20,193 bases of DNA, taken from the IMG/VR virus record IMGVR_UViG_3300046507_000396, positions 1-20,193 of that record. The stretch is one strand, 5' to 3'. Both the position numbers and the translations under genes were made by a program. The DNA comes from a virus. Shown in pieces: positions 3,265-17,066 of the stretch. The notes under the pieces were generated by a model, which worked only from the letters and a program-made list of their open reading frames with translations, ran no database searches and was not told the origin of the DNA. Positions within the stretch are counted from its first letter, which is position 1; every line of letters begins with the position of its first letter.

Positions 3265-4625
3265 CCGCCTTCTCCTTGATAGTTGTCTTCGGTGTCGGCT
3301 TGCGCCTCTTTCTTGGCGGGCTTGACCAGGGCGGGGAACAGCTCGGCCAGGGCCCAGATATGCGCGTCAGCGCGGTTCGGTGATCGCGGGCCGGTGTAGC
3401 CCGAGGTGGAGAAGGCGCACAGCTCGTCCTCGAGCTTGGCGAACAGGCCGGCGTGACGCACCTTGCCCTGCTCGTAGAGCACGCTGAACGGTTCGGCGCG
3501 CTGGGCCTTGCCACGGCTGGCGGTGACCATCTTGAAGTTCACGCGGGTGCCGGCCTTCAGGGCTGCAGCCTGCACCACGAACTTGACCATGCCGCCGCCG
3601 AAGTTCGTCTCGCCCACGATCACGTCGGCCTGGTGACGCTGGTACGCCTGCACGGCTACGCTTCCCCAGGTCGACGGCCCACCCTTTACGGTCAGGTCCT
3701 CGAGCAGGTAGGCATTGCCGTCGACGCCCAGGCCGGCCACGGTGATGCCGACTTCGTCGTTGTCGGCGTTCTGCTCGTCGTCGCTGGCGCCGCTCGGGTC
3801 GACCGAGATGACCACGCGGACCAGCGCCGGCAGGACGTCGCTGTCGGCGCGCCACTTGTCGATTTCCGCCTCATCGAACAAGGCATTCGGGGTGGCCTCA
3901 GCGAACTCGCCGCGCAGGAAGCGGCGCTTCATCCGCTCGGACAGGCCTTCAAGCGTCGCCAGGTATTCCGGCGACAGGTTGGCGGCGTTGTCGCCCGGGT
4001 TCATCTGGAAGCTGTCGTAGTTCTCCGGGTTCGCCAGCGGTGCCTTCGTCTCCGGATCCAGCTTTTGCTTGAAGACCTTGAAGGTCCAGTGCATCTTGCT
4101 GGGCGGGTTGCAGTCGAACAGGAAGCGCAGCTTCAGGGGCTGCTCGACCCCGTTGATGACCTGGGCGCAGCGCTGCGCCAGGCGGGTCAGCAGGATCTGG
4201 ACACCGGCCCACGCGACCTGGCTGGCCTCGTTGATGTAGATGGTCGCGAACTCCAGGCCCAGGATCTTCTCCATGCGCTCCTTGTCGTCCAGACCCAGAA
4301 ACCATACTTGCGACTCGCCCGGCAGCCAGGCGTAGCCGTTCGACATGTTGATGTCCCAGTCGGTACCGCGCACCAGCTGCGGGAAGCACGTGCGCATGAC
4401 CTTCGGGAAGGTGTCCATCATCACGGACGCCTTCAGGTGGTTGAAGCGAGAGCGGGTGACCAGGTGGCGCGAGCCCGGCGCCTTCAGACAGCGGGTGACG
4501 ATGTTCCGGACGATCAGAAAGGTCTTGCCGGAGCGGCCGCCGCCGAACAGCATCAACCAGGTGGCCATGCCGCCCAGCACGGCCTGCGCCAGCTTCTGGC
4601 GCTCGGTAGGGTTGAAGCCGCTCAT
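3252..4625 (-). CDS. Terminase large subunit
   Basis: The ATPase-nuclease that packages DNA into the prohead, 457 aa. The N-terminal ATPase domain shows a Walker A loop GGGRSGKT (residues 28-35), a Walker B strand ending IYINE (E133 as catalytic glutamate) and a coupling-type motif at DCNPP (171-175). The C-terminal RNase H-fold nuclease shows the three expected acids: D276 in VVISVDPSG, E339 in VIVGETNFGG and D420 in RADAHIWALAEL. The length fits the family. Start and stop overlap both neighbours (ATGA with terS; 13 bp with the GNAT gene). With the P22-like portal it suggests headful packaging, which is inference. Transcription most likely comes from the late promoter at 5245-5273. Confidence 0.95.
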   Translation of the reverse strand: MSGFNPTERQKLAQAVLGGMATWLMLFGGGRSGKTFLIVRNIVTRCLKAPGSRHLVTRSRFNHLKASVMMDTFPKVMRTCFPQLVRGTDWDINMSNGYAWLPGESQVWFLGLDDKERMEKILGLEFATIYINEASQVAWAGVQILLTRLAQRCAQVINGVEQPLKLRFLFDCNPPSKMHWTFKVFKQKLDPETKAPLANPENYDSFQMNPGDNAANLSPEYLATLEGLSERMKRRFLRGEFAEATPNALFDEAEIDKWRADSDVLPALVRVVISVDPSGASDDEQNADNDEVGITVAGLGVDGNAYLLEDLTVKGGPSTWGSVAVQAYQRHQADVIVGETNFGGGMVKFVVQAAALKAGTRVNFKMVTASRGKAQRAEPFSVLYEQGKVRHAGLFAKLEDELCAFSTSGYTGPRSPNRADAHIWALAELFPALVKPAKKEAQADTEDNYQGEGGWMG

Positions 4626-10176: not shown

Positions 10177-10202
10177 GAAAAAGCCGCGGAGTTACTGCGG
10201 CT
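10177..10202 (-). terminator. Terminator overlapping the cro stop codon (tR1-like)
   Basis: On the minus strand AGCCGC (10197-10202) and GCGGCT (10182-10187) form a 6-bp stem with a 9-nt loop, followed by TTTTC. The first arm lies in the last codons of cro and the stop codon is in the loop. Position matches lambda tR1, which limits transcription into the replication genes. Confidence 0.65.
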
Positions 10203-10428
10203 GGGATTCGGCAGCTGCGACCTGAGGTGGATCGCCGAAAACGGCGGGATTCAGTTCGTAGCGGGTAACTTGGCCGTTCAGCTTGGCTTCGAGCTCGCGG
10301 CAACGTTCGCCAGGGACGGCGCCCTGGGCCGCCCATTTCTGGATGGCCTGCGGCGTCAGCCCGAGGAGGTTGCCCAGCGCGGTCTGACTTCCAGCGATGC
10401 GAATGGCTTTTGCGATTCCGGTTTCCAT
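10192..10428 (-). CDS. Cro-like repressor (YdaS-type HTH)
   Basis: The 78-aa protein has a helix-turn-helix at about residues 13-34 (SQTALGNLLGLTPQAIQKWA) of the YdaS/Cro type, a short middle region with PGERCRELEAKLNGQVTRYEL, and an alanine/glutamine-rich tail. It is transcribed divergently from the CI repressor across a 116-bp gap that holds three operators. Cro-type proteins bind the same operators as CI and favour lytic growth. The predicted promoter at 10460-10488 would start its transcript about 25 nt upstream of the ATG; the Shine-Dalgarno is weak. Some YdaS-family proteins are toxin-antitoxin regulators, but the context supports Cro. Confidence 0.85.
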   Translation of the reverse strand: METGIAKAIRIAGSQTALGNLLGLTPQAIQKWAAQGAVPGERCRELEAKLNGQVTRYELNPAVFGDPPQVAAAESQPQ

Positions 10429-10449: not shown

Positions 10450-10526
10450 TTACAACCCTAGGTTACATCAGGGCGCCCTTCATTACAACTTATTTTTGCA
10501 GTGATATCTACAACTAATCCTTGTAA
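10450..10526. promoter_or_regulatory. Right operator region: three CI/Cro operators
   Basis: Three 19-bp sites fit YTRCAA-N7-TTGYAR. They are TTACAACCCTAGGTTACAT (10450-10468, right half degenerate), TTACAACTTATTTTTGCAG (10483-10501) and CTACAACTAATCCTTGTAA (10508-10526). The first covers the -10 and the second the -35 of the predicted cro promoter; the third lies just upstream of the repressor gene, like OR3. A shorter GTTGT/ACAAC palindrome (10442-10456) overlaps the first. Binding by CI and Cro is inferred. Confidence 0.72.
10460..10488 (-). promoter_or_regulatory. Predicted early promoter for cro (pR)
   Basis: On the minus strand TTGTAA (10483-10488) and TAACCT (10460-10465) are spaced by 17 bp. 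The elements are modest matches to sigma-70, but the same -10 and spacing recur at the second early promoter (12294-12322), also inside an operator pair. Start expected near 10453. Confidence 0.6.
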
Positions 10527-10544
10527 TATGGATGTGTGGAAAAT

Positions 10545-11258
10545 ATGGCAAATCGACTAAGCGACCTGTTACAGGCGAAAAACGGCGGCAACCAGTCCGA
10601 GATGGCGCGGTATATCGGTGTGACCCCTCAAGCCGTCCAGAAATGGATGTCAGGGGTTACCGAACCCCGTGGCAAGAACCTCGATATGGCGGCCGAATTC
10701 CTCGGCGTGACGCCGGCGCACCTGAAATTCGGCATCCTGGTTGAAGGTGAAGCTGATGCTAAGGCGATGGAAGAGATGCTGCGTACGCTCAAGCCCGGCA
10801 GCTTCATGCGCGTGGAAGGTACCGACCGCGACGACCCCAGGCTCACGATCATTCCGAAGGTGCGCCTTCGCCTTACGGCAGGCCTCAGCGGCTTCGAAGT
10901 CGAGCCGGAACCCTATGACGGCGGGTCGACCACCGTGCCGACCGATTGGATTGAGCGGAACGGATACTCTCGCGACAAGCTGATCGCCATTACCGTGCGC
11001 GGTGAGAGCATGGAGCCGACGTTTTACGAAGGCGACCTGGTCGTCATTAATACGGCGGACATTCAACCTGTGGCCGGTGCTGTTTATGCGGTGAATTATG
11101 AAGGTGAGCCCGCTATTAAGCGTTTGGCGCGCGACGCCGGCCGCTGGTGGTTGGTATCAGATAATGTCGATCAGCGCAGGTATTACCGCCAATCTTTTCA
11201 GAGCGAGACATCGCAGATTATTGGCCGAGTAGTATGGAAGGAAACAGAAAGGTTTTAA
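10545..11258 (+). CDS. CI-type phage repressor with S24 autoprotease domain
   Basis: The 237-aa protein keeps the prophage silent. Residues about 5-62 are an HTH_3-type domain (SEMARYIGVTPQAVQKWMSG). After a linker, the C-terminal LexA/S24 domain has the nucleophile serine in RGESMEPTF (S155) and the lysine general base in GEPAIKRL (K192), the 37-residue spacing seen in LexA. A candidate self-cleavage site is Ala112-Gly113, giving induction through RecA after DNA damage. The ATG at 10545 is preferred over a GTG at 10536 because GTGGAAAAT provides the ribosome site. The operators upstream indicate autoregulation. Its stop overlaps the next ATG (TAATG), so the two downstream genes are probably co-expressed in the lysogen. 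Confidence 0.92.
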   Translation: MANRLSDLLQAKNGGNQSEMARYIGVTPQAVQKWMSGVTEPRGKNLDMAAEFLGVTPAHLKFGILVEGEADAKAMEEMLRTLKPGSFMRVEGTDRDDPRLTIIPKVRLRLTAGLSGFEVEPEPYDGGSTTVPTDWIERNGYSRDKLIAITVRGESMEPTFYEGDLVVINTADIQPVAGAVYAVNYEGEPAIKRLARDAGRWWLVSDNVDQRRYYRQSFQSETSQIIGRVVWKETERF

Positions 11259-11533
11259 TGTTGCACTCGATTCAGCGCCTGCGCGGTGTGCGCATGGCGG
11301 TAGTACTGGTGGAACCTCGCCAGCTGGCCTGGGACTTCGCGGGGCCAATGGTCGCGGACCTGCAGGCGAAGTTTCAGCTGCCGGTGATGCTGGTGGCGCG
11401 CGACAACACGGCTTGGAATAACGCCAGGTCGACCGCCGAATTCGATTCGGTACCCTATCTGCTCGAGCTACTTGCGCACGGCGAGATCGAATGGACTGAG
11501 GCTGTATTTGCTGAGCCTGAAATGCCCTTCTAA
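11258..11533 (+). CDS. Hypothetical protein co-transcribed with the repressor
   Basis: A 91-aa protein with no recognised family. It looks like a small alpha/beta domain: a strand MAVVLVEP, a helix FAGPMVADLQAKFQ, a strand LPVMLVAR, and a C-terminal helix with VPYLLELLAHGEIEW. The start shares one base with the repressor stop (TAATG), with AAAGG upstream; a longer frame starting inside the repressor gene is less likely. Position between CI and a lipoprotein, ahead of a terminator, suggests expression in the lysogen. It may be a small accessory gene; no function can be proposed. Confidence 0.72.
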   Translation: MLHSIQRLRGVRMAVVLVEPRQLAWDFAGPMVADLQAKFQLPVMLVARDNTAWNNARSTAEFDSVPYLLELLAHGEIEWTEAVFAEPEMPF

Positions 11534-11546
11534 CTGCGGCAATAAC

Positions 11547-12173
11547 ATGAAAATCAAATCTCTTGCGTTAGCTGTTTTCGTAACCCTTATTGCCGGGTGT
11601 GCTACACCGAGCGGGAATACACGCAGCAATCCGCAAATGGACGAGCTCAAGTTTTACATCGCATCGAATAAGCCGCGCGCGGAAAGCGGTGCAATGAAAT
11701 GGTCCGAGTATTACAGTGGCGTGTATCAACGTCATGTCGCCGCACACACTTCGCCGGAGCTAATCCAGGTCGTGAATAAATTGCTGTGGAATGCACAGCA
11801 GTACGAAAGCGGAGCCATCTCGAAAGAGGAATTCGACTTCCGGCAGCGGGACCTGCGCCTGGAGGGAGATACGCTTATGCAGCGGCGCGCTGCGGCTGCC
11901 CAGGCTCAGCAACAGGCCCAGACCGCCCTTGCGCTGCAATTGATGCAGGCCAGCCAGCCACGCCCGATGACAGTGGCGCCGGTAGCCGCGCCAACCTTTG
12001 CTACGCCAGCGGCTCCGGCCCAGGTAGGTGCTACCGCTTTCTTTACGGGCAAGCAGCAACAGGTCCAGACCGTCACCTATCAGTACGGCTGGAGCTGCGA
12101 GTACAACTATGCCGGCCGCACCTTCTGGCGCACCTTCGTCGGCAGCTGCCCGTCCAGCGTCCAAGTGCAGTAA
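11547..12173 (+). CDS. Predicted lipoprotein, probable lysogeny-expressed accessory gene
   Basis: A 208-aa protein with a lipoprotein signal peptide: MKIKSLALAVFVTLIAGC, with the lipobox LIAGC and acylation cysteine at residue 18. The mature part has a helical region (ELIQVVNKLLWNAQQYESG, then EEFDFRQRDLRLEGDTLM), a Q/A-rich and P/A-rich stretch, and an aromatic C-terminus with two cysteines (WSCEYNYAGRTFWRTFVGSC). It would be anchored in the cell envelope. The ATG at 11547 is fixed by the signal peptide; the Shine-Dalgarno is weak, and 13 bp separate it from the previous stop. The 5' half is more AT-rich than the phage genes around it. It ends just before a terminator in the repressor transcript, a typical place for lysogenic conversion genes. 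The role is unknown. Confidence 0.8.
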   Translation: MKIKSLALAVFVTLIAGCATPSGNTRSNPQMDELKFYIASNKPRAESGAMKWSEYYSGVYQRHVAAHTSPELIQVVNKLLWNAQQYESGAISKEEFDFRQRDLRLEGDTLMQRRAAAAQAQQQAQTALALQLMQASQPRPMTVAPVAAPTFATPAAPAQVGATAFFTGKQQQVQTVTYQYGWSCEYNYAGRTFWRTFVGSCPSSVQVQ

Positions 12174-12195
12174 CTACAATTTTTAGGTTGCAGCC

Positions 12196-12220
12196 AAACC
12201 CGCCTTGAGCGGGTTTTTTT
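12196..12220 (+). terminator. Rho-independent terminator of the repressor operon
   Basis: AACCCGC (12197-12203), a 5-nt loop and GCGGGTT (12209-12215) form a 7-bp stem followed by five more T residues. It separates the repressor-lipoprotein unit from the second early promoter. Confidence 0.88.
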
Positions 12221-12280
12221 ACGTCTTCCCCCCGCGCTACAACTCCCAGCCCTTCTCCGTTTCAACTTTTTCGCTTGCTT

Positions 12281-12332
12281 TTACAACTTTTACTTGCAGC
12301 ACCTTTCGGCTTGTTGTAACCTGACGTTGTAG
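12281..12332 (+). promoter_or_regulatory. Left-type operator pair and early promoter (pL-like)
   Basis: Two 19-bp operators, TTACAACTTTTACTTGCAG (12281-12299) and TTGTAACCTGACGTTGTAG (12314-12332), match those near cro. The first is identical at 16 of 19 positions to the site at 10483-10501. The 14-bp gap equals the gap at the right operators. A promoter TTGCAG-17 bp-TAACCT (12294-12299, 12317-12322) runs through the pair, with start near 12329 and a leader of about 60 nt. The rest of 12221-12388 holds weaker half-sites (CTACAAC near 12237, TTTCAAC near 12260) and no gene. Confidence 0.72.
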
Positions 12333-12388: not shown

Positions 12389-12733
12389 ATGCGCCACTTC
12401 CGCTTTAACCCTGCCGACCACGAAGACGCGATCGCCATTGCGACCGAAGCCGCCGCCAAGCGCCTGACCGATGCCTTCCTGGCCGACCAGCCAGCGACCA
12501 AAAAACTAATCCTCGACTGCCTCGGCGAGGCCTTGGCCGATGACCAAACCCTGGCCGACGTCGCGCGCCGCGAACTGGCTGGCGAGCCTGCCCTGGGCAA
12601 GCTGCTGGCCGATGTGATTCACGCAGAAGCCGAGCCGCTGGCCCTGCAGGAAGTCGAGAACGCCGCCCGCAGCCGCTACGCCGACTACGTCGACCTGATG
12701 GTCGACATCGCCAAGGACCGCGCGCTGGCGTGA
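12389..12733 (+). CDS. Hypothetical first gene of the rightward early operon
   Basis: A 114-aa acidic, helical protein of unknown family, alanine- and aspartate-rich (RFNPADHEDAIAIATEAAAK, then a helical stretch up to VENAARSRYADYVDLMVDIA). The ATG at 12389 has GGAG 6-7 nt upstream; a TTG 12 nt earlier is less likely. Being the first gene after the pL-like promoter puts it where lambda has N, but it shows no arginine-rich N-peptide, so similarity in role is not supported. Its stop overlaps a possible GTG start of the next frame. Confidence 0.72.
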   Translation: MRHFRFNPADHEDAIAIATEAAAKRLTDAFLADQPATKKLILDCLGEALADDQTLADVARRELAGEPALGKLLADVIHAEAEPLALQEVENAARSRYADYVDLMVDIAKDRALA

Positions 12734-12978
12734 CCGAACAGGAGCGCCGCGCCCCTTACAACGCGCGGCTTGCCCTGATGTCGGGTCAGGAAATCGACGC
12801 AGCGGGACCTGAAATGCCCTGGCAGCCGGAAAAGACGGCATCGAACAACAACCGCCGGCGGCGCCGGCCAGAACGAGGAGCAACATGGACGTCACCTATA
12901 TTGAGTTCCTGTATCCGGGAACTTTCTTTGCCGAGAATAGCAGCCGGCCGGTGCCCCGCCGCGAGCTGCCCGAGGTGA
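12730..12978 (+). CDS. Doubtful small reading frame (GTG start)
   Basis: An 82-codon frame opens with a GTG that overlaps the previous stop (GTGA), as is common in this operon, and its first 50 codons have phage-like composition. But the last 94 bp overlap the well-supported next gene, the tail is arginine- and serine-rich, and there is no good ribosome site. It may be real, may end early in life by frameshift relative to an ancestor, or may be noise filling a 150-bp spacer. Confidence 0.35.
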   Translation: MTEQERRAPYNARLALMSGQEIDAAGPEMPWQPEKTASNNNRRRRRPERGATWTSPILSSCIRELSLPRIAAGRCPAASCPR

Positions 12979-13265
12979 TTCCAGGCCAAGCCACCGGCTA
13001 CCGCTTCTTCACGCGCCGCGAGATCGAAGCCGACGGCGAAAAGTTGGTCGGCCAGCCGAAGGACTACAGCGGCTGGACCTACTTCGGTAAGGAATACAGC
13101 GCCGAGGAAGTGCAGGCTCTGGAAGATGACCGCCTGAGCATCCTGAAATCGAACGTGCGGATCAACGGCTGGCAGCGCATGGTTCTGACCATCTACGGCA
13201 ACTGGTACCAGCTTCAGGCTGACGATCGCGTGGTTGCTGATGCGGACATGGAGCGCGCCCAATGA
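12885..13265 (+). CDS. Hypothetical phage protein
   Basis: A 126-aa protein with mixed alpha/beta character and many aromatics. The N-terminal part (VTYIEFLYPGTFFAENSSRP) is followed by GYRFFTRREIEADGEKLVGQ, a possible strand-turn region, then a helix rich in acids and a C-terminal strand pattern (RMVLTIYGNWYQLQADDRVV). Small early phage proteins with an opening like YIEFLYPG are often found near recombination genes and have no known function. GAGGAG lies 5 nt upstream of the ATG. The stop overlaps the next start (ATGA). Confidence 0.8.
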   Translation: MDVTYIEFLYPGTFFAENSSRPVPRRELPEVIPGQATGYRFFTRREIEADGEKLVGQPKDYSGWTYFGKEYSAEEVQALEDDRLSILKSNVRINGWQRMVLTIYGNWYQLQADDRVVADADMERAQ

Positions 13266-13471
13266 TCGCCGCCGCCCGCATCGCGCGCCGCCTGGTGCGC
13301 AAGATCGCCAAGCCGGTCGCCCTGTGGCTGAACACCCGGGCGCTGGCCCGCGCTGAAGCGCGCGCTGAGCACTTCTACTGCCTGCGCGTCCAGTCCGTAC
13401 CGATGGAGCTGGACGAGCGCAAACGCCAGGTCGTCCTGACGGCGCGCCGCCGCGAAATCGAGGGGTGGTGA
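13262..13471 (+). CDS. Hypothetical basic helical protein
   Basis: A 69-aa strongly basic protein of unknown family. The first 30 residues form an arginine/alanine-rich amphipathic helix (IAAARIARRLVRKIAKPVAL); the rest is helical with alternating arginine and acidic residues (RALARAEARAEHFY, then ERKRQVVLTARRREIEGW). It could bind nucleic acid or another protein. The ATG overlaps the previous stop, and two bases separate its stop from the next start. Confidence 0.65.
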   Translation: MIAAARIARRLVRKIAKPVALWLNTRALARAEARAEHFYCLRVQSVPMELDERKRQVVLTARRREIEGW

Positions 13472-13473
13472 GC

Positions 13474-13614
13474 ATGGTCTGCGCGTCCTGCGGCGGCCAC
13501 GTCACCTGGCGCGGCCCCATCACCAACCTGACCCAAACCGAGTGCGCCGACTGTGGCGCGATCAACAACCAGCTGGTCGACCAGCCCAACGAACAAGAGG
13601 ACGACGAAGAATGA
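13474..13614 (+). CDS. Tiny zinc-ribbon protein
   Basis: A 46-aa protein with two CxxC knuckles (CASC at residues 3-6 and CADC at 24-27) separated by 17 residues, the spacing of a single zinc ribbon, followed by an acidic tail ending EQEDDEE. Such small ribbons often bind nucleic acid or proteins. The ATG has GAGGGGTGG about 6 nt upstream, and the stop overlaps the next ATG (ATGA). The zinc knuckles, ribosome site and coupling support a real gene despite its size. Confidence 0.75.
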   Translation: MVCASCGGHVTWRGPITNLTQTECADCGAINNQLVDQPNEQEDDEE

Positions 13615-13715
13615 TCCGCCACATCCTGAACCAGTACCGCCTGTCGCTGCGCGCCGGCTTCCAGCCCCGCAAAGCCATTACCCGCGCCGTGCGCACCTAC
13701 GTCTACGGCTTTTAA
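13611..13715 (+). CDS. 34-aa basic peptide
   Basis: A 34-codon frame encodes a basic peptide (MIRHILNQYRLSLRAGFQPR, ending YVYGF). It starts at the ATGA overlap with the zinc-ribbon gene, and 14 bp separate its stop from the recT start. Similar short peptides with an R-x-G-F-x-P-R-K-A core occur in phage operons as uncharacterised products. Coupling to its neighbour is the main support. Confidence 0.6.
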   Translation: MIRHILNQYRLSLRAGFQPRKAITRAVRTYVYGF

Positions 13716-13729
13716 CCACGAAGGAAACC

Positions 13730-14497
13730 ATGAACGAACTGACCATCCAGGGCGAATCGACGTTCTCCCTTTCTCCCCGCTCCTTGGCTGAGGCCATGGA
13801 GTTCTCGAAGATCATCGCCTCTTCGGACATGGTGCCGAAGGACTATGTCAACAAGCCCGGCAACGTACTGGTAGCGGTGCAGACTGGCGCCGAGCTGGGC
13901 CTGAAGCCGATGCAGTCGCTGCAGGGCATCTCGGTCATCAACGGCCGTCCCAGCATCTGGGGCGATGCAATGCGGGCGCTGGTGATCAGCCACCCGGAAT
14001 TCGAGGATCTGCAGGAGGACAAGCAGGATACCCACTGCACCGTCACCTTGAAGCGGCGCGGGCGCTCGGCGGTGGTCACCACGTTCACGATGGAAGACGC
14101 GAAGAAGGCTGGCCTGGCCGGGAAGTCGGGACCATGGCAGACCGCGCCTAAGCGGATGCTGCAGATGCGCGCCTTCGCCTTCGCCGCCCGCGACCTGTTC
14201 GCCGATGCCCTCAAAGGTATCAAGTCGACCGAGGAGCTGCGCGACTACCCCACCGAAGAGCGCATCGAGCGCGACATCACGCCGGCGCCCGCTGCGGCCG
14301 CCGCGGCGGCGCCAGCGCGGACGGAACTGCCGGTGTGCACGCCGGAGAAGTTCGCCGAGAACACCCAGGCCTGGCGTGACCTGATCCTGTCGGGAAAGAA
14401 GACGCCGGCCGCACTGATCTCGATGTTGAGCACGAAGACCATCCTCAGCGAAGACCAGAAGCTCACGATCGACAGCTGGGCCCACGAAGGCGAATAA
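13730..14497 (+). CDS. recT: RecT-family single-strand annealing protein
   Basis: A 255-aa protein that coats single-stranded DNA and anneals complementary strands. The RecT-type core runs from residue about 15 to 170: SLAEAMEFSKIIASSDMVPK, then VLVAVQTGAELGLKPMQSLQ and ISVINGRPSIWGDAMRAL, then GPWQTAPKRMLQMRAFAFAA. The C-terminal third is an alanine-rich linker (AAAAAAAPARTELP) and a helical tail that may contact SSB or the exonuclease. The start at 13730 has AAGGAA 4 nt upstream; the frame continues upstream as shadow of the zinc-ribbon and peptide genes. It is followed 10 bp later by the exonuclease, the usual recombination pair. Confidence 0.92.
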   Translation: MNELTIQGESTFSLSPRSLAEAMEFSKIIASSDMVPKDYVNKPGNVLVAVQTGAELGLKPMQSLQGISVINGRPSIWGDAMRALVISHPEFEDLQEDKQDTHCTVTLKRRGRSAVVTTFTMEDAKKAGLAGKSGPWQTAPKRMLQMRAFAFAARDLFADALKGIKSTEELRDYPTEERIERDITPAPAAAAAAAPARTELPVCTPEKFAENTQAWRDLILSGKKTPAALISMLSTKTILSEDQKLTIDSWAHEGE

Positions 14498-14507
14498 GGA
14501 GAACACC

Positions 14508-16277
14508 ATGGCAACTATTCACGACCTGACCCAAGGCAGCCCAGAGTGGCAGCAGTACCGTCTGGAGAAATTCGGCGCCAGTGAGGCGGCCGCGATGCTG
14601 GGCATCTCGCCACTGGTCACGCGCACAGAGCTGCTGCATATGAAGGCTACCGGCACCGCGCAGGAGTTTAGCGATTGGGTGCAGAAGAACATCCTGGACT
14701 ACGGCCACCAGGTCGAAGCGCTGGCGCGCCCGCTGGTCGAAGACCTGATCGGCGAAGACCTCTACCCAGTTACCTGCTCGGACGGCCGCCTGTCGGCTTC
14801 CTGCGACGGCCTGACGATGGGCGAGGACATCGCCTTCGAGCATAAGCAGTGGAACGAGACGCTGGCGGCCGCGATCGTCGCCGGCGCGCTGCCGGACGAA
14901 TACATGCCGCAGCCGCAGCAGATCATGATGGTCACCGGCTGCAGCAAGGTCGTGTTCGTGTGCTCGGACGGCACCCTCGACAACTTCGTGTACCTGTGGG
15001 TGCTGCCCGATCCGGCCTGGCAGGAGCGCATCCGCGCCGGCTGGACACAGTTCGAAGCCGATCTGGCCACCTACCAGCATGTCGAAGTTCTGCCGGCGCC
15101 GGTGGCCGCCGCAGTGCAGGACCTGCCGGCGCTGTCGATCCGCGTCGACGGCCAGCTGACCCTTAACCACAATCTGGTGCTGTTCGGCGAGCGGCTGCAA
15201 TCGTTTATCGCCGACATCGACACGAACCCGAGCGATGACCAGGCCTTCGCCGATGCCGAACAGGCGATCAAGGTGATGGAACGCGCCGAGAACGCGTTGG
15301 GCGCCGCCGAGGCGTCCGCGCTGGGCCAGATCTCGACGGTCGATGAAATGGTGCGCACGGTCGCCAGCTACAAGGAACTGGCGCGCAAGACGCGCCTGAT
15401 GCTGGAAAAGGTCGTCAAGGCGCGCAAGGAGACGATCCGCGTCGAGATCCAGCAGTCCGGCAAGGAACGGGCCACGGCCCACATCTCCTCGCTGAATGCA
15501 CGCCTGGGCAAGCCGTACATGCCGGCCATCGCCGTGGACTTCGCCGGCGCCATGAAGGGGAAGAAGACCGTCACCAGCCTGCGGGACGCGGTGGACACCG
15601 AGCTGGCGCGGTTCAAGATCGAGGCGAACGCCGTGGCCGACCGTATCCAGATCAACCTGACCACGCTGCGCGAGCTGGCCGGCGCACATGCCTTCCTGTT
15701 CGCCGACACTGCGTCGATCGTTCTCAAGGCCGCCGACGACCTGACTGCCCTGGTCAAGATGCGTATTGCCGAACATGAGCAGGCCGAGGCGGCGAAGGCC
15801 GAAGCTCTGCGCGCACGGATCGTCGAAGAGGAGCGCGTCAAGGCCGAGAAGGCCGCTGCGGACGCCGAGCGCGCGCGTGTCGCGGCTGAAACGAAGCGTC
15901 AGCTGGACGAGCAGGCCGCCAACCTGGCCGCGGCGCGCGCGCAGGAAGAAGCGGCAGCACGTGCAGCATCCGCCAGCACCGCGCCTGCGCCCGTTCACGC
16001 CGCCGAGGCGCAGCCGGCAGCGCCGGCCCAGGTGATGCCAATCGCCGCCGCGCGCCCGGCAGCCGCACCGACCACGGCGCCGGCCCTGCGTCTGGGCCAG
16101 ATTAACGAGCGCCTGGCGCCGATCGCGCTGAGTGCCGACGGCCTAGCGCGCCTGGGCTTCGCGCCGGCTGCGACCGACAAGTCGGCGAAGCTCTACCACG
16201 AAGCCGACTTCCCGGCGATGTGCGCCGCGCTGATCCGCCACGTCGACGGCGTGGCCCAGCAGGCGAAGGCCGCGTGA
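14508..16277 (+). CDS. YqaJ/lambda-exonuclease-family recombinase with long coiled-coil extension
   Basis: A 589-aa protein. Residues about 1-200 are a YqaJ-type nuclease: GSPEWQQYRLEKFGASEAAA (entry motif), E70 in DYGHQVEAL, then D100, E111 and K113 in LSASCDGL...IAFEHKQW, a PD-(D/E)xK active site. This resects double-stranded ends to give single strands for RecT. Residues about 205-410 are helical with a central region resembling the DUF1351 type. About 410-495 are an alanine/glutamate/arginine-rich coiled coil, then a proline/alanine linker and a distinct domain (about 525-589, with INERLAPIALSADGLARLGF). Lambda Exo is only about 226 aa, so most of this protein is extra. Start: GGAG 8 nt upstream. 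Confidence 0.88.
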   Translation: MATIHDLTQGSPEWQQYRLEKFGASEAAAMLGISPLVTRTELLHMKATGTAQEFSDWVQKNILDYGHQVEALARPLVEDLIGEDLYPVTCSDGRLSASCDGLTMGEDIAFEHKQWNETLAAAIVAGALPDEYMPQPQQIMMVTGCSKVVFVCSDGTLDNFVYLWVLPDPAWQERIRAGWTQFEADLATYQHVEVLPAPVAAAVQDLPALSIRVDGQLTLNHNLVLFGERLQSFIADIDTNPSDDQAFADAEQAIKVMERAENALGAAEASALGQISTVDEMVRTVASYKELARKTRLMLEKVVKARKETIRVEIQQSGKERATAHISSLNARLGKPYMPAIAVDFAGAMKGKKTVTSLRDAVDTELARFKIEANAVADRIQINLTTLRELAGAHAFLFADTASIVLKAADDLTALVKMRIAEHEQAEAAKAEALRARIVEEERVKAEKAAADAERARVAAETKRQLDEQAANLAAARAQEEAAARAASASTAPAPVHAAEAQPAAPAQVMPIAAARPAAAPTTAPALRLGQINERLAPIALSADGLARLGFAPAATDKSAKLYHEADFPAMCAALIRHVDGVAQQAKAA

Positions 16278-16538: not shown

Positions 16539-17066
16539 ATGCTCGAAATTCGCTCCCTAAAAACCCAGCTTGCATCCGTGAACGCCCGCGCCGAGCTGCA
16601 CGGCCAAGAGAAGAAACCGGCCTTCGACCTGAAGCTGATCTGCGCTATGCCGAACGACGTGCTGATCGACTTTCACCCGGAGCTGCGCTCCTGGCTGTTC
16701 AAGCCGAACGATGATCCCGACCAGGATCCCGACCTGGTCGCGCAGGCCGATCCCGGCGCGCTGACGGCGCTGCGCTTCCCGAAGCTGGGCGCCCAGAAGT
16801 GGGATTTCGAAGCCGAGGGCTACACGCTGCGCATCGCTTACGGCATCGGCGGTCCGAGCGACATCGTGCTGTCGGAGTGCAAGGTGCATAAGGTGTCGTT
16901 CGTCTGCCAGCAGGGCGGCACGGTGTCGGTGCAATGCACGGTTATCGCGCACCCGGATTCGGCTGTGGTCGGGCGCCTGTGCGAGATGATCCAGCAGACG
17001 GTCGAGATGGACCTGACGCCGCCCGAGCCGGCGACCCTGGGCCAGCTGTTCGGCGAGGCGGCCTGA
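16539..17066 (+). CDS. Hypothetical conserved-looking phage protein
   Basis: A 175-aa protein with an opening (MLEIRSLKTQLASVNARAEL) and all-beta-looking body: FDLKLICAMPNDVLIDFHP, then a loop rich in aspartate and proline (NDDPDQDPDLV), then KWDFEAEGYTLRIAYGIGG and KVHKVSFVCQQGGTVSVQCT. The strand-rich pattern and acidic tail (ending PATLGQLFGE) would suit a binding protein, and an SSB-like role is conceivable next to RecT, but nothing proves it. The start follows a 5-bp gap with CAGGAGATG about 13 nt upstream. Confidence 0.75.
   Translation: MLEIRSLKTQLASVNARAELHGQEKKPAFDLKLICAMPNDVLIDFHPELRSWLFKPNDDPDQDPDLVAQADPGALTALRFPKLGAQKWDFEAEGYTLRIAYGIGGPSDIVLSECKVHKVSFVCQQGGTVSVQCTVIAHPDSAVVGRLCEMIQQTVEMDLTPPEPATLGQLFGEAA

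Follow-up and report, generated by a model that had tools for sequence, protein, structure and literature searches.

The 20,193-base virus record IMGVR_UViG_3300046507_000396, analyzed over its full extent and called the window below, likely encodes the OR/OL switch of a temperate, lambda-like phage of soil type, a reading to which we give a probability of about 0.88. Under this reading CI, and probably Cro as well, represses the early promoters pR and pL, and a third site lies over pRM, from which cI would be transcribed. As judged from sequence alone, one repressor very probably shuts both early promoters 1.8 kb apart. The first-pass annotation of this DNA had proposed such co-regulation, and it gains support from several sides: the sites track the DNA-binding domain of CI, the five recur together, phage contigs hold few strays and host genomes carry matches at chance level. 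The operators are real, well conserved and lambda-like, and they are a variant in spacing and in site orientation. Compared with lambda, the operator pairs stand one DNA turn further apart, a distance that nearly all relatives retain. The analysis computed where the sites lie, how well their spacing is conserved, how they go with the CI DNA-binding domain, which genes surround them and what fold CI has; binding, promoter activity, the order of occupancy, cooperativity of dimers 33 bp apart and OL-OR looping are inferences.

The window contains five near-palindromic 17-bp operators of the pattern TRYAA-N7-TTRYA, three between cro and cI and two ahead of the recombination operon. OR1 (10451-10467, TACAACCCTAGGTTACA) lies across the -10 element of pR, OR2 (10484-10500, TACAACTTATTTTTGCA) across its -35 element, and OR3 (10509-10525, TACAACTAATCCTTGTA), centred 25 bp from OR2, across the -10 element of pRM. 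At pL, the -35 operator (12282-12298, TACAACTTTTACTTGCA) is inverted relative to that of pR, and the -10 operator (12315-12331, TGTAACCTGACGTTGTA) follows at 33 bp. Centre spacings are therefore 33 bp for OR1-OR2, 25 bp for OR2-OR3 and 33 bp for the OL pair. All five sites were found at the coordinates first claimed for them, and the 14-bp gaps (between sites drawn there as 19 bp), the 33-bp centres, the 17-bp promoter spacers and the TAACCT -10 elements proved exact. The claim that both promoters carry the same operator pair holds for the -10 sites, which have the same orientation, and needs correction for the -35 sites, which are inverted (TGCAAAAATAAGTTGTA at pR, TACAACTTTTACTTGCA at pL).

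With at most one mismatch allowed, the pattern occurs 8 times in the window, where 1.04 matches are expected, and none of 100 shuffles reached 8. As the consensus was drawn up after the sites had been seen, an independent matrix test carries more weight than this count. With a matrix built from 47 unique sites of relatives, the window left out, the top five matches were exactly these five sites (18.7-22.9 bits); the sixth scored 11.5 bits and the best score in 100 simulated sequences was 16.1 bits. Part of the likeness between sites is promoter-derived, since both -10 sites hold TAACCT, and chance or a general promoter likeness might be invoked in place of operators. OR3, however, is equally palindromic beside a different -10 element, and the matrix, the shuffles, reversed-pattern controls and conservation across relatives together make that explanation so improbable as to be negligible. 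The sixth match is a lone, moderate one at 16558-16574, just within the small gene that follows the RecE-like gene; its score is in the chance range.

The annotation had also placed a third site beside the repressor gene only, like OR3. OR3 was indeed found, and no full third OL site was detected in the window with the matrix, leaving OL with two sites. Upstream of the OL pair by about 44-55 bp, a TACAAC-type half-site after a run of 6-9 C occurs in most relatives (12220-12280 in the window), and this run and half-site stand at the border with variable genes. Relatives likewise share a CAACTTTTTTCGC tract, which precedes the OL pair by about 21 bp. Some of them also have a degenerate palindrome of 18 bp upstream of OL, too variable to be called an operator.

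The promoters were placed largely by geometry. The predicted pR, on the minus strand, has the -35 hexamer TTGTAA (10483-10488) 17 bp from a -10 TAACCT (10460-10465), with its start predicted near 10453; the putative pL, on the plus strand, has TTGCAG (12294-12299) and TAACCT (12317-12322), with a start predicted near 12329. The sequence AGGTTACA at the pR -10 is nearly invariant across 21 aligned relatives, and the pL TAACCT is invariant in 21 aligned OL regions. Relative to the site centres, the -35 element lies at +6.5 and the -10 element at -3.5. The -35 hexamers differ because the -35 operator is inverted at pL, an inversion preserved among aligned relatives and one to which a symmetric dimer would be indifferent. 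For pRM, the candidate -10 is TAATAT (10524-10529, plus strand), and a TANNNT hexamer covers the cI side of OR3, 6-7 nt ahead of the start codon, in aligned relatives. Transcription is predicted to start at 10536, where the cI start codon begins, suggesting that the cI mRNA from pRM is leaderless, as in lambda.

Relatives of this CI are encoded in viral contigs and in bacterial genomes of Massilia, Duganella, Janthinobacterium, Pseudoduganella, Rhizobacter and Hydrogenophaga. Blastn of the region against phage records returned no match. All relatives with a CI N-terminus like that of the window have OR1, OR2 and OR3 at -85, -52 and -27 from the start codon, within 1-2 bases. In the same relatives the OL pair lies 1.1-2.2 kb downstream where the contig extends there (4.3 kb in L123), and all five sites occur together in every complete relative. 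When 2.9 million viral contigs were scanned with the gap between sites free from 3 to 33 bases, 17 of 18 OL pairs and 19 of 20 OR1-OR2 pairs had 33-bp centres, the remaining ones being at 21 and 34 bp, respectively. L113 (10580-10617), with an OL pair at 21 bp and an OR pair at 34 bp, is a natural spacing variant.

Stray copies of the sites are few in these phages. In the 35-65 kb phage contigs of 12 relatives, 60 of 62 matches are the five operators, compared with 4 matches for the reversed-pattern control. Host-wide scans, made on the genomes of two relatives' hosts, gave 23 and 17 matches outside the prophage against 19 and 27 in the controls, which is chance level. Many equally good sites spread at random would have counted against the proposal; instead, the phage contigs are nearly free of strays and the hosts stay at the background rate.

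Presence of the operators follows the head of the repressor. Where the DNA-binding domain is at least 0.67 identical to that of the window, the sites are present in 13 of 13 protein-fetched relatives, and below 0.40 the pair is present in 0 of 73, related sequences being counted as such without tree weighting. The sites persist at C-terminal domain identities of 0.26-0.99 (0.26-0.28 in L059, L073 and L077), and L010 has no pair though its C-terminal domain is 0.95 identical. As the sites track the DNA-binding domain and not the C-terminal domain, the motif belongs with the former. The CI genes here are mosaics and provide natural domain swaps. Four of them (L009, L010, L011 and L014) have C-terminal domains 90-95% identical joined to unrelated DNA-binding domains, a case of repeated head swapping.

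This linkage also bears on whether Cro is the main user of the sites, with CI binding at other places or at just some of them. A close cro-like gene accompanies these operators in every relative where the region is covered, which speaks for that alternative, as does the helix motif TPQAxQKW that Cro has in common with CI. Yet relatives in which the remainder of CI has been replaced still show the sites going with its DNA-binding domain, and the group-A regions examined hold no other repeated palindrome of comparable strength, so that use of the sites chiefly by Cro appears very improbable. Because Cro accompanies the DNA-binding domain and shares the motif, CI and Cro probably read the same sites.

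Several points weigh against a lambda-like switch. The pR and pL hexamers are poor relative to the sigma-70 consensus, no 9-of-12 site having been found; with promoters so far from consensus, it is conservation and geometry that identify them. Independence among the relatives is incomplete, and cI, cro and OR are adjacent, possibly inherited as a block, although OL lies 1.2-4.3 kb off, past different genes. OL spacing is looser than that of OR, with 21 bp in L113, 20 bp in Pseudomonas phage PS-1 and one clear site in Pseudomonas phage vB_PaeP_Tr60_Ab31.

The 33-bp spacing might be a mere by-product of promoter geometry, with no need for dimer-dimer contact and with CI binding each site independently. 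A 17-bp promoter spacer gives 33-bp centres if the -35 element occupies the right half of its site and the -10 element the left half of the next one, and 23 bp if both occupy right halves. The register in the window is exactly the former, both elements do lie in right halves in the 23-25 bp types, and the 933W repressor is reported to be non-cooperative (PMC3317979). This account fits less well with L022, L031, L039, L061 and L063, which keep 31-35 bp though the best -35 candidate lies in the gap, or with L113 and PS-1, whose OL pairs, at 20-21 bp, break the geometry yet are near two helical turns. We regard the by-product reading as a serious possibility, appreciably short of even odds. The earlier suggestion that 33 bp favours paired dimers has only indirect support: the spacing is kept in nearly all relatives and recurs with unrelated motifs and registers, but phage 933W shows that a lambdoid OR can function without cooperativity (PMC3317979).

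A de novo search of the remaining relatives yielded about 13 further palindrome types common to OR and OL, with OL centre spacings of 22-25 or 31-35 bp. With group A (33 bp, once 21), PS-1 (20 bp) and a Klebsiella phage (32 bp) added, the spacings fall into classes of 20-25 and 31-35 bp, with none at 26-30 bp. Against simple uniform nulls this void has a P of about 0.004 to 0.02, a crude test with ranges set after the data were seen, and the two classes are accordingly a lead, not proof. In the short class both promoter elements mostly occupy right half-sites, the arrangement of lambda; pairs of the long class have the -35 element in a half-site, as in this window, or in the inter-site gap. 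The motif TTAGG-N4-CCTAA is found in both classes, pR and pL of one phage being in the same class (L022 versus L008, L024 and L054; the middle OR site of L022 and L054 is weak and was positioned by hand). Group L, L113 and PS-1 are mixed, with a long OR pair and a short OL pair, and OR spacing was not assigned for types F, H, K and N.

Spacing class is often common to pR and pL of one phage. A given class is met with motifs that are unrelated and with promoter registers that differ, and phages with a single repressor type can differ in class. Based on PS-1, the Klebsiella phage and about 14 operator types from prophages of Oxalobacteraceae and related hosts, we tentatively suggest, at not far below even odds, that prophage operator pairs fall in two discrete classes about one helical turn apart, and that helical phase is conserved rather than sequence or promoter layout.

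In the lambda-like switch we favour, CI dimers would bind the 17-bp pseudo-palindromes, one on the -35 and one on the -10 element of both pR, toward cro and the O- and P-like genes, and pL, toward the RecT and RecE genes. As the operators cover both elements, filling either would block RNA polymerase, leaving both early operons silent in the lysogen. With OR2 just upstream of pRM and OR3 over its -10 element, CI would first activate its own synthesis and, once abundant, repress it, as lambda CI does. Cro, whose recognition helix is nearly identical, would bind the same sites for the lytic choice. Induction of the SOS response would release both promoters through self-cleavage of CI at its AG site by the Ser/Lys dyad. 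By analogy with lambda, where looping over 2.3 kb is described (PMC8053113), OL-OR looping over 1.8 kb is possible; the OR-OL distance is 1.2-4.3 kb in relatives. Given a lambdoid phage, 933W, without OL3 and without cooperativity (PMC3317979), neither feature can be assumed here.

Gene content is consistent with such a switch. The cI gene (10536-11258, plus strand) encodes HTH_3 and Peptidase_S24 domains, and the cleavage site A115-G116 and catalytic dyad S158 and K195 are conserved. As CI had no match in the PDB by sequence, a predicted model was used (mean pLDDT 80), and it resembles lambda CI and LexA. The divergent cro-like gene (10192-10428, minus strand), of the YdaS/P22-Cro type (PF15943, 3e-18; P22_Cro, 3e-6; transcriptional repressor in PHROG), is the first gene of the rightward early operon. 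The predicted pL-driven, leftward-type early operon (12389-16277, plus strand) includes genes for a RecT-like annealing protein (from about 13730, plus strand) and a RecE-like exonuclease (14508-16277, plus strand).

Between cI and OL lie two accessory genes on the plus strand, neither with a family in family searches: one at 11234-11533 and one at 11547-12173, the latter a predicted lipoprotein by its LIAGC lipobox, read by eye. An intrinsic-terminator-like hairpin (12196-12216, plus strand) closes the cI-accessory transcript, so that the 1.8 kb separating OR from OL holds two genes and a terminator, as originally described. This interval (11234-12216) carries a different gene set in nearly every relative. 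Its cargo includes predicted lipoproteins, membrane proteins, Rap1a-like proteins (L007, L016), a weak match to the Cor superinfection-exclusion protein (L006), a surface-adhesin E match (L059) and an RmrA-like HTH-IrrE protease (L123). The interval resembles a hotspot for lysogenic conversion or exclusion, equivalent to rexAB in lambda.

These prophages form an extensive natural collection of lambda-type switches beyond the model phages of enteric bacteria. In it a single C-terminal repressor family is combined with numerous DNA-binding domains, and each of these is matched by operators at two promoters far apart, which may make operator specificity predictable from the repressor helix. The long-standing question of what sets operator spacing, whether helical phase and dimer contacts or promoter layout, is open to test with this set.

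Lambda is among the closest known systems. It likewise has 17-bp pseudo-palindromic operators, three at OR plus an OL set, with OR3 over pRM, the promoter predicted here to give a leaderless cI mRNA, and the order cro-OR-cI-accessory genes-OL-recombination genes, rexA and rexB lying between cI and OL in the lambda record; the OR-OL distances, 1.8 kb here and 2.3 kb in lambda, are alike. Features of the lambda type found in the window are cI and cro pointing away from a shared region with several homologous operators, a further set with this motif at the second early promoter, a repressor with an HTH domain and a self-cleaving-type S24 domain, and replication genes of O and P type on the cro side with RecT- and RecE-like recombination genes on the OL side. 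The window differs in operator sequence, in its YdaS/P22-type Cro, in having two OL sites instead of three, and in its centre spacings (OR 33 and 25 bp, OL 33 bp, versus OR 24 and 23 bp, OL 24 and 20 bp), which depart from the 20-24 bp of adjacent lambda-type operators. As spacing is not a strict criterion, the 33-bp pairs are taken as a variant; nor are three OL sites, since 933W also has no OL3 (PMC3317979). The repressor of that phage is reported to be non-cooperative (PMC3317979), whereas dimers may cooperate here.

The CI DNA-binding domain model superimposes on P22 c2 with an rmsd of 1.0 A over 67 residues at about 25% identity, and P22 shares the Cro type; it probably differs in operator sequence and spacing. 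Looping has been demonstrated for HK022 CI and phiKO2 CB (PMC8053113), in which OL and OR are about 700 and 630 bp apart, compared with 1.8 kb in the window. Escherichia phage Tritos, with a 46% match over 46 residues of the DNA-binding domain, was set aside as it has no such sites. The papers searched describe neither these operators nor those of Massilia prophages.

The isolated Pseudomonas phages Tr60_Ab31 and PS-1 have the same CI helix type (SPQAVQKW in Ab31) and OR spacings of 33 and 25 bp. Ab31 differs in its single clear OL site and its CI C-terminal domain, and PS-1 in its 20-bp OL pair. In their records (L126, HG798806, 3848-3956; L129, AP014684, 3465-3500) the start annotated for cI falls within the operators or upstream of them; judged from where OR3 lies, the true starts are probably at 3956 in Ab31 and near 3500 in PS-1. 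The Klebsiella prophage has OR spacings of 33 and 36 bp and an OL spacing of 32 bp.
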